This document shows, in pieces, positions 45,670 through 51,656 of a stretch of DNA of 64,000 nucleotides (positions within the stretch are counted from its first letter, which is position 1; every line of letters starts with the position of its first letter). Origin of the DNA: Rhodospirillaceae bacterium (GTDB taxonomy: Bacteria; Pseudomonadota; Alphaproteobacteria; Bin65); the NCBI GenBank assembly GCA_009840595.1, contig VXNK01000039.1, positions 1 through 64,000 of the forward strand, in the 5' to 3' direction. The translations under genes were made by a program, and so were the position numbers. The notes below the pieces were generated by a model. That model saw nothing but the letters and a program-made list of their open reading frames with translations, made no database searches and was not told where the DNA came from.

Positions 45670-46623
45670 CTACTTCGCCTGGCCGGTCTCGCGATAATAT
45701 TTCATCGCGCCGGGGTGATAGGGCACGCCGATATCGGTATACATCTGCTTCGGATTGAAGTCGTGCATGCCCTTGAAGGCGGCGACCATCATCTTCTTGT
45801 TCGCCGCCATCGCCTTGACCAGCTTGTAGACGATATCGTCGGAGACCTTGGCGTTCGCCGTGATGATGAAGGGCGCAGCCATGATGTTGGTCGGGCCGGT
45901 CACCCCGGCGTAGGCCGGCGACGGGCCGATCTTCTCGACCACCGAGCCGGGCGCAATCGCCTGCATCTTCTTCACCGACGCCGGATCGTCGGGCAGCGAG
46001 ACATATTTGAAGCCGCGCGAGGCATTGGCCTGGCGCATCTTGCCGGAGGTGATGGAGAACATGCCGGCATCGACCTTGCCGCCCATGTAATCGTCGACCC
46101 CGCGCACGCCGTTCGGCGCCGGCACGCCCTTGACGTCCTTGAAGGTCAGGTCCGCCATATTCAGCAGGGCGCTCCAGAAGGTACCCTGGATGCGTTGCTT
46201 GGCGAACCCGGAGGACAGGCGCACACCCTTGAGATCGGCGACCGAATTGATCTTCGAATCCTTGGGCGCAAAGATGCCGAGCCGTAGCGTGCGCAGCCGG
46301 GCGACAACGCGGACATTCGGCTGCGGCTTGCCCTTGAACATCGCCTTGCCCTGGTTGGCAAAGGCGGCGACGACGCTGACCGCGATCGAGAAATTGAGCC
46401 GGCCCCTGTCGACCAGCGGCAGGGTGACGACCGGGCCGCCTTGCGGCACGACGCGGGCGCGCAGGTTGAGCACGTCCTTGGCGACCTTCGCCACGGCGGC
46501 GCCGGTCGCATAGGCCGAGGAGCCCTGCGGGTTGGTGCCGATGCTGTACGTCTGTGCGAATGCCGGTGCGGCGGCGAGGGTGAGGGCGGCGGCGCCTGCG
46601 GCGGCGAGGGCAATGACTTTCAT
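45670..46623 (-). CDS. TAXI family TRAP solute-binding protein (copy 1)
   Basis: A 317-residue periplasmic binding protein with signal peptide MKVIALAAAGAAALTLAAAP ending AFA. The mature N-terminus QTYSIGTNPQGSSAYATGAA and GFAKQRIQGTFWSALLNMAD are TAXI marks. It is nearest to the permease and is about four-fifths identical by eye to the neighbouring copy; the signal peptide, PNGVRG/PNGVRS and the last 20 residues are almost the same. TAXI proteins deliver organic acids such as glutamate or aromatic compounds, but ligand residues cannot be assigned from sequence. Confidence 0.93.
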   Translation of the reverse strand: MKVIALAAAGAAALTLAAAPAFAQTYSIGTNPQGSSAYATGAAVAKVAKDVLNLRARVVPQGGPVVTLPLVDRGRLNFSIAVSVVAAFANQGKAMFKGKPQPNVRVVARLRTLRLGIFAPKDSKINSVADLKGVRLSSGFAKQRIQGTFWSALLNMADLTFKDVKGVPAPNGVRGVDDYMGGKVDAGMFSITSGKMRQANASRGFKYVSLPDDPASVKKMQAIAPGSVVEKIGPSPAYAGVTGPTNIMAAPFIITANAKVSDDIVYKLVKAMAANKKMMVAAFKGMHDFNPKQMYTDIGVPYHPGAMKYYRETGQAK

Positions 46624-46772: not shown

Positions 46773-47714
46773 CTACTTCGCCTGGCCGGTCTCGCGATAG
46801 TATTTCATCGCGCCGGAATGATAGGGCACGCCGATGTCGACATACATCTTTTTCGGATCGAAGCCGGCCATGCCCTTGAAAGCGGAAACCATCGTCTTCT
46901 TGTTCGCCGCCATGGCCGTGACCAGTTTGTAGACGATGTCGTCAGACATCTTGGCGTTCGCCGTGACGATGAAGGGCGTGGCCAGAACTTTGGTCGGGCC
47001 TGTCACGCCGGCAAAGGCGGGCGCGGGGCCGATCGTTTCGACGACCGTACCGGGATGGATGGCCTGGAATTTCCTCACCGACGCCGGGTCGTCGGGCAGC
47101 GAGACATATTTGAAACCGCGCGAGGCAAAGGCCTGGCGCATCTTGCCGGAGGTGATGGAGAACATGCCGGCATCGATCTTGCCGCCCATGTAATCCTCGA
47201 CGCTGCGCACGCCGTTCGGCGCCGGGACGCCCTCGACATCCTTGTAGGTCATGTCGGCCATGTTCAGCGTCGCACGCCACATCACGCCGATTATGCGCTG
47301 CTTGGCGAAGCCGGAAGGGATTTTCCTGCCCTTGAGTTCGGCAATGCTCCGGATCGTCGAATCCTTCGGGACGAAGAGGCCCACCCGCAACGTGCGCAGG
47401 ACGGCGACCACGCGGAAATTCTTCTGCGGTTTGCCCTTGAACATCGCCCGGCCCTGGTTGGCGAAGGCGGCGACGACGCTGACCGCGATCGAGAAGTCCA
47501 GCTTGCCCTGGTCGACCAGCGGCAGGGTGACGACGGGGCCGCCCTGCGGCACGACGCGGGCGCGCAGGCCGAGCACGTCCTTGGCGACCTTGGCGACGGC
47601 GGCGCCGGTCGCATAGGCCGCGGACCCCTGTGGATTGGTGCCGATGCTGTAGGTCTGCGCAAAAGCGGGCGCGGCCAGAACGGCGCCTGCGGCAGCGAGG
47701 GCAAGTATCTTCAT
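46773..47714 (-). CDS. TAXI family TRAP solute-binding protein (copy 2)
   Basis: A 313-residue paralogue of the adjacent binding protein, starting at MKILALAAAG (GGAGGA upstream); the open frame reaches 47774, but those residues precede the signal peptide. The mature protein begins QTYSIGTNPQGSAAYATGAA. Differences from copy 1 cluster at stretches that may line the ligand site (for example KIPSGFAKQRIIGVMWRATL against RLSSGFAKQRIQGTFWSALL). Two binding proteins served by one permease imply uptake of two related solutes. About 150 bases separate the copies, enough for an internal promoter. Confidence 0.93.
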   Translation of the reverse strand: MKILALAAAGAVLAAPAFAQTYSIGTNPQGSAAYATGAAVAKVAKDVLGLRARVVPQGGPVVTLPLVDQGKLDFSIAVSVVAAFANQGRAMFKGKPQKNFRVVAVLRTLRVGLFVPKDSTIRSIAELKGRKIPSGFAKQRIIGVMWRATLNMADMTYKDVEGVPAPNGVRSVEDYMGGKIDAGMFSITSGKMRQAFASRGFKYVSLPDDPASVRKFQAIHPGTVVETIGPAPAFAGVTGPTKVLATPFIVTANAKMSDDIVYKLVTAMAANKKTMVSAFKGMAGFDPKKMYVDIGVPYHSGAMKYYRETGQAK

Positions 47715-47790
47715 GATTTCCTCCGTTCGGGTTCCGTAAGTTCGGCGTTGCGGGGGGATTGTGAGGCGGCGCACGCCGGGCCGGACGCGG

Positions 47791-48028
47791 TTACTCCGCG
47801 GCGGCAGCGAATTCGGTTTCGCGCATCTTCCTGATCGCCCGGCGGCTGTAGGCCACCGCCTTGTCGTGGCCGCGCAGGAGGAGCTTGCGCGCGGGGTCCT
47901 TGCCCACCGCTTCCTGCTGCGCCTCGATGAAAATCTTGTCCTCGAGAAACGCTTCCAGAATGTCCGTGTGGAACGCGGTGTTGGCCGGCGAATCGAGCGC
48001 CTGACCGCGGACGGCGGTAGAAAAGAAA
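47791..48028 (-). pseudogene. Rieske oxygenase gene, 3' fragment (cut off by transposon)
   Basis: After the transposon, this fragment supplies the last 76 residues of the oxygenase (from STAVRGQALDSPANTAFHTD to RETEFAAAAE and TAA at 47793-47791). It contains FLEDKIFIEAQQ, whose Asp (residue 304 of the rebuilt protein) matches the third ligand of the mononuclear iron in dicamba-monooxygenase/VanA relatives. Because the fragment has no start of its own, the cell should not make this part, and the truncated N-terminal product lacks the metal ligand. Bases 48021-48028 are one copy of the target duplication. Confidence 0.93.
48021..48028. repeat. Target-site duplication (left)
   Basis: AAAAGAAA, identical to 50828-50835 at the other end of the transposon. 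Confidence 0.95.
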
Positions 48029-48050
48029 GGCGATTATATACTTGACTGAA
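48029..48050. repeat. Terminal inverted repeat (left)
   Basis: 22 bases, exact reverse complement of 50806-50827. It contains the stop codon TAA (48036-48034) of the last gene of the element and an inward-facing TTGACT. Confidence 0.96.
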
Positions 48051-48201
48051 TATCGCGCTTGGCAGTGGCGGCTTTCTGCGATTTCCGCTTCATCGGCTTG
48101 ACGGGCCGCATGAGTGCGCGGCCTACCATTTCAGGCGTCGCCCCGGCATAGCGCGGGTTCAGGACTTCCGGCTTCCGGGGCGGCTTGGGCTTCGCGGTCA
48201 T
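48034..48201 (-). CDS. 55-residue transposon passenger protein
   Basis: Begins MTAKPKPPRKPEVLNPRYAG, continues ATPEMVGRALMRPVKP and ends in a Lys-rich tail (KPMKRKSQKAATAKRDIQSSI, split here only for description). It is preceded by a strong GGGAGGAAG, and its ATG overlaps the TGA of the nuclease gene (ATGA). Its stop lies inside the left terminal repeat, so the coding region fills the element to its very end. The N-terminal NPRYxGATPExVGRAL pattern resembles small proteins I have seen annotated only as hypothetical. A role as regulator, inhibitor or antitoxin of the neighbouring enzymes is a guess. Confidence 0.75.
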   Translation of the reverse strand: MTAKPKPPRKPEVLNPRYAGATPEMVGRALMRPVKPMKRKSQKAATAKRDIQSSI

Positions 48202-48836
48202 GGCTTCCTCCCTTCAAGTTCCTCGACGCGGGCGCGGGCGAGATACTCCAGCCGTTGGGCTTGCGCCAGTAGCGTCTTCCGGATTCCGATCTCGACATTC
48301 CGCTCACTGATACCGCGGGCAAGGCTGGCGATTGTGCGAGCGCGGCGCGCAATCCTGATGTCCGGGTGCTGGCGCGCGCGGCGGACCTCATCGGGCAATA
48401 CGGACACACGCACGGAGCGGGGCAGAGCGATGGCGTCGGCTTCCTTGATCGCTTCCTCGTTCAGGATCACGCTGAACGTCGATCCCTGAACCGCCAGCAT
48501 GTAGACCGCATATTCGGCACGACTCAGTGTCGCCTTCACGTCCTCTTTGGCCAGTTCCCAGAACGGCCACATTTCGATTTCGGCAACCTCGAACGGGTCA
48601 AGGACCGCCTTAGCCACGGCGTCGGTTCTTTGCCCGGTGAGATGGCGGCGAACGCGCGTGCGCAGGTCTTCCTTCGTGCGCCCCACATAGATCGGCTCTC
48701 CGTCATAGTCGTAGAACAGGTAGACGCCATGCTCGCAGTCTCCGACGCGCCGGCCGTCGCCATAGTCGGTATCCAGTGCCTTTGTGACGCCAGCGTAGAG
48801 CGCCCGCACATCGTCCGGCGCTCTACGGCGCGTCAT
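48198..48836 (-). CDS. GIY-YIG nuclease (transposon passenger)
   Basis: A 212-residue protein with the GIY-YIG nuclease core: GVYLFYDYDGEPIYVGR (GVY at 37-39, YVG at 50-52), the catalytic Arg in EDLRTRVRRHL, and the metal-binding Glu in LSRAEYAVYML (about residue 108), followed by an Asn in SVILNEEA. The C-terminal 80 residues are helical and charged (SLARGISERNVEIGIRKTLL). Start ATG 48836 overlaps the stop of the methyltransferase gene (ATGA), so I prefer it over the start at 48875. Beside a DNA methyltransferase it is best read as a restriction endonuclease; a homing- or repair-type nuclease is the alternative. It does not resemble Eco29kI closely, as far as I can recall that sequence. Confidence 0.85.
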   Translation of the reverse strand: MTRRRAPDDVRALYAGVTKALDTDYGDGRRVGDCEHGVYLFYDYDGEPIYVGRTKEDLRTRVRRHLTGQRTDAVAKAVLDPFEVAEIEMWPFWELAKEDVKATLSRAEYAVYMLAVQGSTFSVILNEEAIKEADAIALPRSVRVSVLPDEVRRARQHPDIRIARRARTIASLARGISERNVEIGIRKTLLAQAQRLEYLARARVEELEGRKP

Positions 48837-49810
48837 CGTTGCATGATCGGGCGGAGACAGTGCTTGCCCAGCCATTCGATTACCGGCACGCAGACTGCAT
48901 CCCCAAGCGCGAACATCGCCTGTGCGGGCGTCACAGCGCCGTAGCGCAGGTGTCCCGCGCCTTGCAGGCGGGCATATTCCATGACGTTCATCCAGCGCGC
49001 CGCGATGCAGCCGTTCCCGGCCCGGACGATGGCCTGTTTCGCCGACCCGCCGCGCGTCGTCCGCAATGCCCCGGCCCGTTCATCGGCCCGCACTTCCCAA
49101 ACCGGACGGCCCGCCCTGGTACGGCGGAACGCGCCGAAATAGCCCGGACGCTTCCGGCGCTGATAGGACGTGACGCGCTGCGACTGGATGGGCGACATGG
49201 ACGTGAGGAACTGGCCCAGCCGTTTCGCCGGCCACCATTCACCGTCCGGCGCGGCGACCTCGGCCAGCCGGAGATCGTCGCGCATTGGCGGCGGCTCGGG
49301 TAGCATGACGCCGCCCTTGTGGCCGAACAGAAACACGCGGGCGCGGCTTTGCGGGACGAAGGCGGCGGCGTCTACCACGACATGCCCCGTCGCATAGCCG
49401 AGGTCGTGCAACGCGCCGATCACGGTGTGCCAGTCCCGGCCGCCGTTGGCCGTCAGGAACCCGGTGACATTCTCGATCATCAGGGTTCGCGGCGATCGCT
49501 CGCCCATTTCGCCGAGAATGCGCAGGAAATCCCGCACAAGGCCGGATTGCTCGCCATCCAGTCCCTTCCGGTATCCGGCCAGCGATAGATCGGTACAGGG
49601 GAAAGAGGCCGTCGCAAGATCGACCGCGGGGATGTCACCGCCGGACAGGCCGCGAATGTCGCCGACGTTCAATTCGGCGTCGCCCCAATTGTCCCTGTAG
49701 AGCGCCGCCTTGATTGGACAGATGTCGTTCGCGAAAACCGTCTCGATACCGGCAGTTTCGAGGCCGGCGCGCATGAGGCCCATGCCGGCAAAGAACTCGG
49801 CGGCGCGCAT
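48833..49810 (-). CDS. DNA (cytosine-5-)-methyltransferase (transposon passenger)
   Basis: A 325-residue C5-cytosine methylase with all main motifs: I (FFAGMGLMRAG, residues 6-16), IV with the catalytic Cys72 in ASFPCTDLSLAGYRKG, VI ENV at 113-115, VIII PQSRARVFLFG near 153-163, and IX/X (NVMEYARLQGAGHLRYG; FALGDAVCVPVIEWL). The target-recognition region, about residues 200-270, is variable and its site cannot be read. Its ATG overlaps the transposase stop by one base, and its TGA overlaps the nuclease start. It would protect host and element DNA if the nuclease is a restriction enzyme. Confidence 0.94.
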   Translation of the reverse strand: MRAAEFFAGMGLMRAGLETAGIETVFANDICPIKAALYRDNWGDAELNVGDIRGLSGGDIPAVDLATASFPCTDLSLAGYRKGLDGEQSGLVRDFLRILGEMGERSPRTLMIENVTGFLTANGGRDWHTVIGALHDLGYATGHVVVDAAAFVPQSRARVFLFGHKGGVMLPEPPPMRDDLRLAEVAAPDGEWWPAKRLGQFLTSMSPIQSQRVTSYQRRKRPGYFGAFRRTRAGRPVWEVRADERAGALRTTRGGSAKQAIVRAGNGCIAARWMNVMEYARLQGAGHLRYGAVTPAQAMFALGDAVCVPVIEWLGKHCLRPIMQR

Positions 49811-50754
49811 CAGGCGATCAGGTCGCGGTACATCAACCGCTTGCCGACCAGCCCGGTAACGACGCCCGCCATCTGATCGACGGTATCGGCGTTGCGGACG
49901 TTGTGCCGACCCGCGAACTCCCGGACGTATCGGGCCAGATGCTTTTCGGACAGGTGATGGAACGTGCCGTGGTAGCCGCGCTTGAACAGGGACCAGAACG
50001 ACTCGATTCCATTCGTGTGAGCCATCTTGCGGACGTATTCGCCGACCGAGTGATTGACCGACTCGTGATCGAAACCGGCCATGCCCCGGTAAGCTCTGGC
50101 GTCGTCTGTGAAGACCTGCGCGCCGGGTTCAACGTGTTCCCGGACGAAGCCTTGCAGCGTCGGGCCGTCCGTCGCTTCGACCGGGCGGGCGACGATCCGG
50201 TTTGTCCCCCGATCCTTCACACCGGCGACAACGGCCTTGCCGTGACCGCCCCGGCCCTTCAACTGCTTCCGCTTCGCTTTCGGCATGTTCTTGCGCTTGC
50301 CACCGATGAACGTCTCATCGACTTCCGCCGGGCCGGTGAACAGCGCCGCTGCCTCATCGGCCCAAGCTTCGCGAATGCGGTGCAGCATGAACCATGCGGT
50401 CTTCTGTGTCACTTTCAAATCGCGGTGCAGCCGCATCGAACTGACGCCCTTGAGGCTGACCATTTCCAAGTAGATGGCGAAGACCCACTTGCGCAGCGGA
50501 ACCTTCGACCGCTCTAGCGCCGTGCCGATCCGCACGGAGAACGCCCGCTTGCAGCCGGAACAGTAGTAGGGAAGCCCGGACGTTTCCGCCGCCTCATGCG
50601 TCTCCGTGCAACCGCAACGCGGGCAGTGACGGCCTTCCGGCCAGACCAGCGACTCGAACCATGCCGTCGCCGCCGCTTCATCCGGGAACATCTCGGTCAA
50701 CTCGATCAGGCCGATGCCTTCGCGGTGTGCCTTTCCCGGTCCCTTCTGCGCCAT
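49810..50754 (-). CDS. IS1595 family transposase
   Basis: A 314-residue transposase. The N-terminal zinc ribbon is formed by CPRCGC and CSGCK (Cys 44, 47, 65, 68). The DDE-type core has PAEVDETFIGGKRKNMPKAK (Asp146), VFTDDARAYRGMAGFDHESV (Asp217/218) and NGIESFWSLFKRGYHGTFHH (Glu251), all diagnostic for IS1595. The gene is full length with GAGGCAAAG before ATG and a strong promoter reaching into the terminal repeat. Its stop and the methyltransferase start share one base, so transposition and passenger genes are expressed together. Confidence 0.96.
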   Translation of the reverse strand: MAQKGPGKAHREGIGLIELTEMFPDEAAATAWFESLVWPEGRHCPRCGCTETHEAAETSGLPYYCSGCKRAFSVRIGTALERSKVPLRKWVFAIYLEMVSLKGVSSMRLHRDLKVTQKTAWFMLHRIREAWADEAAALFTGPAEVDETFIGGKRKNMPKAKRKQLKGRGGHGKAVVAGVKDRGTNRIVARPVEATDGPTLQGFVREHVEPGAQVFTDDARAYRGMAGFDHESVNHSVGEYVRKMAHTNGIESFWSLFKRGYHGTFHHLSEKHLARYVREFAGRHNVRNADTVDQMAGVVTGLVGKRLMYRDLIA

Positions 50755-50785
50755 CGTCTTTGCCTCAAACCCTTGTCCTGTCTAG

Positions 50786-50814
50786 AATATAGGGATTGAC
50801 GGCCTTTCAGTCAA
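50786..50814 (-). promoter_or_regulatory. Sigma70-type promoter of the transposon operon
   Basis: On the minus strand, -35 TTGACT (50814-50809) and -10 TATATT (50791-50786) are separated by exactly 17 bases. The -35 box lies inside the right terminal inverted repeat, the -10 outside it. Transposase bound to the repeat would thus block its own promoter. Confidence 0.75.
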
Positions 50815-50827
50815 GTATATAATCGCC
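50806..50827. repeat. Terminal inverted repeat (right)
   Basis: 22 bases ending TATATAATCGCC, exact reverse complement of 48029-48050; carries the -35 box of the transposase promoter. Confidence 0.96.
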
Positions 50828-50835
50828 AAAAGAAA
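50828..50835. repeat. Target-site duplication (right)
   Basis: AAAAGAAA, identical to 48021-48028. One copy is part of the oxygenase coding sequence (codons for Phe-Phe-Ser). Confidence 0.95.
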
Positions 50836-51656
50836 TAGTGGAAGTTCTCGTCGTCCGCCGGGGTCGCGTGATGGAACAGCCGGACGGCCATGCCGCCGGG
50901 CTTTTCCCGGTTTTCGCGCCCGCCGGTCCCGGAGTCGTGGCCGCCGCCCCACTGCAGGACCGAGGCAGGGGCGACATATTCGAACTCCTGCCAACGGTCG
51001 ACTTTGCCCTCGAAGCCGGCGACCTTGACGAAGGACGGCGGCGGGGTCGATTCCATCATCCAGCGGACATAGCGGGCGCCGCGCGCGGTCCGCGTCGTCG
51101 TCAGTTCGGCGTCGTCGTGTTCGCCGGGGTGGCCCCCGATGGTCGACGTATGGACATAGCCCAGGTGGGTCAGGTCCATGAGGTTGTCGATCATGAACAT
51201 GTAGTTGGCGGCGATGTCGTAGCGCGCGTAGTGGAAATTCCACTCGTCCGTCCTGTCGTGCCAGGCGAAGTCGACGATCAGGCCGGTATCGGCCAGCGCG
51301 GGGTCGCCCATCCAGATCCACACGAAATGCTGGCGCTCGACGACCGGAAAGGCGCGCACGCAAAAGGTCGGGCTGGTCCGCTCGCCCGGATTGACGACGC
51401 AGGCGCCGCTGCCGTCGAAGACCAGGCCGTGATAGCCGCATTGCAGACCCTGTTCGACGGCAGCGCCCAGCGAAAGCTTCACGCCGCGATGGCTGCAGCG
51501 GTCTTCCAGGGCGGCTGCCGTGCCGTCGCCGCTGCGGAACAGCACGACATCCTCGCCCAGGATCCGGCGGGCGATCGGCCCTTCGTCCAGTTCGTGGGAC
51601 CAGGCGCCGATGTACCAGGCGTCGTGGACCAAGGGTTCCATGGCGAAATCGGACAT
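50828..51656 (-). pseudogene. Rieske non-heme iron oxygenase gene, 5' part (interrupted)
   Basis: The first 276 residues of an aromatic-ring oxygenase or O-demethylase (VanA/dicamba monooxygenase-like). The Rieske cluster is bound by CSH (54, 56) and CGYH (73, 76); the mononuclear iron site starts with DLTHLGYVH (His164, His169). As it stands, translation runs into the transposon and ends after four foreign residues (RLYT) at 50811. Joining to 47791-48020 restores a 352-residue protein with the missing Asp ligand. The MarR gene lies 68 bases upstream, and the TAXI binding protein genes follow the 3' fragment. A reductase partner is not adjacent. Confidence 0.94.

Follow-up and report, generated by a model that had tools for sequence, protein, structure and literature searches.

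The 64,000-nucleotide stretch of contig VXNK01000039.1 from a Rhodospirillaceae bacterium (hereafter, the window) contains a short mobile element in which an IS1595-family transposase is followed by a C5-cytosine DNA methyltransferase, a GIY-YIG nuclease and a protein of 55 amino acids (aa). We propose, with a probability of roughly 85%, that this element is an IS1595-family insertion sequence (IS) with passenger genes, and that it is the carrier of a whole type II restriction-modification (R-M) system. A preliminary description had named a mobile element with these same four components, and the four minus-strand genes, the perfect end repeats and the unoccupied insertion sites in related genomes bear it out (Table 1).

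The window element is a complete IS1595 element, recently inserted into a Rieske oxygenase gene. Its terminal inverted repeats (TIRs) are complementary over 22 of 22 bp (100%) and the flanking target-site duplication (TSD) agrees at 8 of 8 bp, a TIR and 8-bp duplication pattern that places it among the IS1595 insertion sequences. In-silico excision of the element together with one 8-bp copy restored the oxygenase frame, and in five congeneric genomes we found an unoccupied site at the exact insertion point (88-94% identity across the site). An insertion so specific to one lineage suggests transposition by the encoded transposase, which is of the IS1595/ISXO2 type (PF12762, 140.8 bits against a cut-off of 27; NF033547, 197.4 bits against a cut-off of 75). 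With a methylase and a nuclease, both unrelated to transposition, lying between the repeats of one IS, the element is of the kind called a transporter IS (tIS).

Table 1. Position of the element, its genes and the interrupted host gene in the window.
Feature	Position	Strand	Evidence and remarks
Complete IS1595-family element, 2799 bp	48029..50827	-	TIRs, TSD, orthologous unoccupied sites in five congeneric genomes
Terminal inverted repeat, 55-aa-ORF end, GGCGATTATATACTTGACTGAA	48029..48050	+	Holds stop codon and last codons of the 55-aa open reading frame (ORF)
Terminal inverted repeat, transposase end, identical 22 bp	50806..50827	-	Holds -35 box of operon promoter
Target-site duplication AAAAGAAA, left copy	48021..48028	.	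8/8 bp same as right copy
Target-site duplication AAAAGAAA, right copy	50828..50835	.	8/8 bp same as left copy
Promoter-like site TTGACT-N17-TATATT, sigma70-like, reading into operon	50786..50814	-	10/12 matches; -35 box inside repeat
IS1595 transposase, 314 aa, Zn-ribbon and DDE domain	49810..50754	-	PF12762 4.7e-41, PF12760 3e-07, NF033547 2.7e-58
C5-cytosine DNA methyltransferase, 325 aa, compact form	48833..49810	-	PF00145 1.3e-42 over residues 1-318; PADLOC type II MTase PDLC03243, 344 bits
GIY-YIG nuclease, 212 aa from inner ATG (225 aa if start 48875)	48198..48836	-	PF01541 4.5e-08
55-aa Pro/Lys-rich protein, ATPEMVGRALMRPV core, IS1595-associated small end protein	48034..48201	-	Relatives beside end repeat in elements with different cargo
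Interrupted Rieske oxygenase gene, 5' part	50836..51656	-	PF00355, PF19112; orthologues 91-94% identical in five congeners
Interrupted Rieske oxygenase gene, 3' part	47791..48028	-	In frame once element removed; unoccupied site in congeners

All four genes lie on the minus strand, in the order transposase, methyltransferase, nuclease and 55-aa protein. The transposase and methylase genes overlap by one base (TGATG), and each of the two following junctions is a four-base overlap (ATGA), provided that 48836 is taken as the nuclease start; a start at the upstream ATG (48875) would lengthen the overlap with the methylase gene to 43 bases. We preferred the inner start because the extra residues are modelled at low confidence and several relatives fit the inner start. 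The overlaps of one or four bases, the single promoter (one sigma70-like site with its -35 box in the repeat) and the last stop codon within the terminal repeat had all been read correctly in the preliminary description, and the element reads as a single operon. Several other IS1595 elements have a -35-like hexamer at the same position of the repeat, with a 17-base spacer. A second promoter-like site, TTGACG-N16-TATAAT (11/12), faces outward at 50796-50823 (+) with its -10 box in the transposase-end repeat, and could drive flanking DNA.

The methylase matches PF00145 and has the PC, ENV and QxRxR motifs of C5 DNA methyltransferases, which are invariant or nearly so in an alignment of relatives. 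It is ~40 aa shorter ahead of the target-recognition region, a compact form found in over a third of these relatives. The nuclease scored 33.7 bits with PF01541 (cut-off 22.6) and has the catalytic Tyr, Arg and Glu of GIY-YIG nucleases, together with a UvrC-like core in a fold search; its AlphaFold model has a mean predicted local distance difference test (pLDDT) of 89.3, with the first ~20 aa low. In the restriction enzyme Eco29kI, the active site consists of Y49, Y76, R104, H108, E142 and N154, for which a model and, except for Y76, mutants provide backing (PMC1952068). These six positions correspond to Y52, Y63, R74, H78, E121 and N139 of the window nuclease (225-aa numbering), with the four-residue spacing of the R and H kept, and all six residues are invariant in 68 relatives. 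Judged from its sequence, the nuclease should be active. The agreement with Eco29kI-type enzymes lies in the active-site residues only, and we regard the nuclease as a GIY-YIG restriction-enzyme candidate that neither its sequence nor its overall fold places in the Eco29kI family.

The methylase and nuclease genes stay together. Scanning one genome per species gave 461 relatives of the nuclease, of which 80 were kept, and a homologous methylase stands beside the nuclease in nearly all of the 80 loci, in hosts from the Chloroflexota, Acidobacteriota, Acidimicrobiia, Gammaproteobacteria and others. The IS1595 transposase is absent from most loci with the pair. The two genes are on one strand in 78 of 85 analysable pairs, most of them overlapping or separated by a few tens of bases, and across the 85 pairs the protein distances of methylase and nuclease are correlated (Mantel r = 0.71; none of 5000 permutations reached this value, the highest being 0.20). 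Part of this correlation comes from shared host ancestry, and it is therefore read as long co-inheritance and not as proof of interaction. In close pairs, the ratio of non-synonymous to synonymous substitution rates (dN/dS) is mostly 0.05-0.23 for methylase and nuclease alike; both genes, with values around 0.1, are under purifying selection in relatives. Plasmids repeat the pattern: 14 plasmid records matched the nuclease and nine were opened, the eight annotated ones all having a C5 methylase gene nearby and the ninth, unannotated, yielding one by tblastn. R-M loci with C5 methylases commonly include Vsr as well. Here, a Vsr-like ORF lies beside the pair at many loci, with annotated Vsr genes nearby in plasmids and a Vsr-like gene inside one decayed relative of the element (L101; L-numbers are locus labels of the compared stretches). 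The linked methylase and endonuclease genes, kept as a pair, very probably constitute a type II R-M system. The proposal that a C5 methylase is coupled to a nuclease in a self-contained transposable unit thus gains support, the pairing being kept across phyla and independent of the transposase.

The same pair is also found in other IS1595 elements. A transposase gene lies directly upstream of the methylase and nuclease genes in L094, L101, L111, L114, L121 and L125, and remnants of one are left in L095 and L123. In the scan for TIRs and TSDs, matches with two TSD mismatches or without a GG start were mostly due to chance and were not used; L094, L111 and L114 proved complete, their TIRs being good and their 8-bp duplications perfect. 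All three carry the pair. A counterpart of the 55-aa protein is recognisable in L111; at the corresponding position, L094 and L114 have small basic ORFs that resemble it only loosely. On the tree of transposases, supported branches force at least four changes among the seven GIY-carrying rows (five in the best tree), so one capture followed by simple descent does not explain the GIY cargo. The transposase nearest to that of the window, L055 from the same genus, has a different R-M system aboard (support 86/99, moderate). The same kind of R-M system appears to have entered IS1595 elements several times, gains and losses being indistinguishable on the tree. Two elements with the pair, L121:1-2372 and L125:16-2387, are 97.3% identical over 2372 bp; their hosts are metagenome-assembled genomes assigned to Anaerolineae and Acidobacteriaceae, and as both contigs are ~3 kb, misbinning is possible.

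Sister elements were found with quite different cargo. Delimited by TIR and TSD are elements with an N6/N4 methylase fused to HNH (L055, L072), an XcyI-type endonuclease and an adjoining methylase-like ORF marked by a TSPPY motif (L067), an MvaI/BcnI-type endonuclease together with a methylase in the operon of the IS1595 transposase (L175:1475-2993 and L176:5888-7419, on viral-collection contigs; the L176 methylase was called by eye from a TSPPYN motif), a D12 methylase and a type II endonuclease-like HNH protein (L211), and a type IIG protein with a specificity subunit (L224). A methylase with HNH stands next to IS1595 transposases in L280, L292 and L298, and L285 has a C5-methylase-like ORF (by eye) and a 264-aa ORF next to an IS1595 transposase that looks broken; at none of these four loci did the scan detect a pair of TIRs. 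Cargo other than R-M genes includes an EamA transporter (L073, in the same genome as the window), a proteasome-like protein (L070) and DUF3800 (L221). Unrelated R-M systems thus seem, from the gene content of these loci, to have been captured and moved repeatedly by one simple type of IS1595 transposon. The preliminary description had held that relatives with the same transposase and no such linkage would speak against it; sister elements do carry other cargo, but the link between methylase and nuclease is unbroken and persists without the transposase. In the same-genus element L055:530-3630, a 141-aa protein lies ahead of the methylase-HNH fusion, and similar proteins of 141-147 aa precede the cargo in L072 and L283. 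L211 and L237 lie on one 141-kb viral-collection contig (IMGVR_UViG_3300037840_000188), which has two IS1595 transposase loci, one of them the delimited D12/HNH element.

As we picture it, the promoter with its -35 box built into the end repeat would drive one operon of four genes, and the transposase would recognise the 22-bp ends and duplicate 8 bp of the target as it inserts the unit. In host DNA, a short site with a cytosine would be marked by the methyltransferase. DNA that enters the cell with this site unmarked would be cut there by the nuclease and so restricted, and loss of the element would be penalised by the R-M pair. Methylation, cleavage, the shared site, restriction or addiction and present transposition activity are what we infer from sequence, with defence or addiction behaviour expected by analogy with R-M systems in general. 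More tentatively, one lineage of IS1595 elements may have become a general R-M vehicle, in which a fixed frame of TIR-borne promoter, transposase and an end protein with an ATPE motif is repeatedly loaded with unrelated R-M systems (GIY-YIG, HNH, XcyI and others); the end protein might act in transposition or couple transposition to cargo expression, for example by delaying restriction until the new host is methylated.

It is also possible, though on the doubtful side, that the R-M pair is mainly a selfish stabiliser (addiction module) of the transposon and not a phage defence. R-M systems can kill cells that lose them (PMC3031569), and this minimal transposon carries the pair without any other selectable cargo. 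Yet the pair is mostly found outside transposons, and clean loss of a replicating IS copy is rare; the sequence cannot separate addiction from defence, and the two roles are not exclusive.

The preliminary description went further and placed the 55-residue protein in a possible transposable module for defence or addiction. On one such reading, the four genes would form a single dedicated unit in which this protein regulates the nuclease or is its antitoxin. The 55-aa ORF does lie in the same operon, with an ATGA overlap with the nuclease gene, and in several elements whose nucleases differ, the R-M genes have a related small ORF after them. A motif scan, however, found small Pro/Lys-rich relatives (core ATPExxxRAxxRPV) in L055, L067, L071, L072, L073, L095, L101 and others, in several cases directly beside the end repeat, and such relatives terminate IS1595 elements with an XcyI R-M system, methylase-HNH proteins or, in L073, the EamA transporter and no R-M genes at all. 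The matches track IS1595 transposases. A profile search of 372 class-level genomes gave matches in 20, and 12 of the 20 regions inspected have, no more than ~5 kb away, an IS1595 transposase or part of one with an identity of 55% or higher (11 of 17 without the three regions used in the profile). In the window's own genome, all four matches have an IS1595 transposase, or what remains of one, no more than 2.5 kb away, and at least two of the four matches had been in the profile; one random site in this genome would be that near with a chance of ~1%. In the window and in L055, the last residues of the small protein, SSI, are dictated by the repeat itself. Motif scans of the many GIY-YIG/methylase pairs outside IS1595 found no 55-aa-like protein, plasmids gave no match to it, none of the Pfam, NCBIfam and PADLOC models recognised it, and nothing in PHROG reached significance. 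Its AlphaFold model is of low confidence, with one short helix (residues 23-30), and we therefore read no function from it. Because its relatives end IS1595 elements with unrelated cargo, we assign the 55-aa protein to the transposon and not to the R-M system. A toxin-antitoxin or addiction module in which it is specific to the pair does not emerge, its role as R-M antitoxin was rejected, and a dedicated four-gene module is improbable. A role in transposition or element expression is our guess.

Several observations weigh against reading the methylase and nuclease as an R-M system. In the fold search with the nuclease model, the GIY-YIG core of UvrC was the sole solid match (probability 0.99, E ~0.02), Eco29kI being weak (E 0.6, template modelling (TM) score 0.23) and Hpy188I weaker. 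The Pfam, NCBIfam and PADLOC models of GIY-YIG R-M enzymes gave the nuclease no strong match. A few nuclease relatives have no detectable full methylase neighbour (e.g. L118, and also L147, which sits at the end of its contig), and the transposase comes first in the operon, before the methylase, which leaves the timing of restriction after entry unexplained. Searches of PDB chains with phmmer and profiles likewise returned only UvrC, with weak E-values, and no Eco29kI sequence match. With the UvrC core as its sole solid structural match, the nuclease is without a solved close relative.

A rival reading is an orphan-type methylase that shields the element from host restriction, with the GIY-YIG nuclease processing mismatches or branched DNA in place of restricting unmarked DNA. 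The core is closest to UvrC by sequence and fold, and C5 methylases often accompany repair nucleases; one of these, Vsr, occurs in addition to the GIY-YIG nuclease in many relatives. We hold this quite improbable. The two genes co-diverge tightly and share operons across phyla, the R...H pair typical of Eco29kI is retained, as is each of the six active-site positions, and the GIY-YIG gene is kept where Vsr is also present, so it is no substitute for Vsr. A chimeric assembly, which one might suspect in a host genome that is a 168-contig draft, is hardly credible and was rejected: the TIRs and TSD are perfect, independent elements of the same layout occur in other genomes, and an artefact is excluded for practical purposes because the DNA of five congeners runs uninterrupted through the insertion point.

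Beside the interrupted Rieske oxygenase gene, two adjoining similar genes at 45670-46623 and 46773-47774 (-) look by eye like TAXI-type solute-receptor paralogues.

For IS1595-family transporter IS, PMC5704250 and PMC3129680 cite work by Siguier, Gagnevin and Chandler from 2009. Our literature searches brought up neither the small end protein nor R-M systems as a recurring cargo of IS1595; they did not cover the content of that 2009 paper, so priority is open. As the preliminary description had noted, IS1595 elements with passenger genes are not new, tISCpe8 and MTnSag1/tISSag10 being examples (PMC5704250, PMC3129680). These share with the window element an IS1595 transposase, inverted repeats of ~22-25 bp, an 8-bp duplication and one or more passenger genes, but they carry antibiotic resistance and mobilisation functions in place of an R-M pair and a small end protein. 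GIY-YIG restriction enzymes are already known as well (PMC1952068). Eco29kI and Hpy188I are GIY-YIG endonucleases of similar size paired with a methylase, with equivalent active-site residues in the case of Eco29kI, but there is no significant sequence match to either, the model of the window nuclease has different additions around the GIY-YIG core, and its C5 partner is of a separate family. R-M systems are a common cargo of Tn7-like transposons and the most frequent of their defence genes (PMC8649781); these transposons are large and have several transposition genes, whereas the window element has 2.8 kb, a single transposase and its cargo in the transposase operon. IS elements also move R-M genes as composite transposons (PMC3031569 and works that it cites); there the genes lie between two IS copies, here inside one IS. 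The recurring layout of transposase, R-M genes and small basic end protein looks new.

R-M genes are scattered among genomes, and their carrier is often unclear. A very small, precisely bounded transposon with a whole R-M pair would offer a concrete and testable route for R-M movement within and between phyla. The combination of an IS1595 transposase and a small end protein with the ATPE motif may serve as a search rule for new R-M systems, and the 55-aa protein and its relatives would form a new small-protein family.

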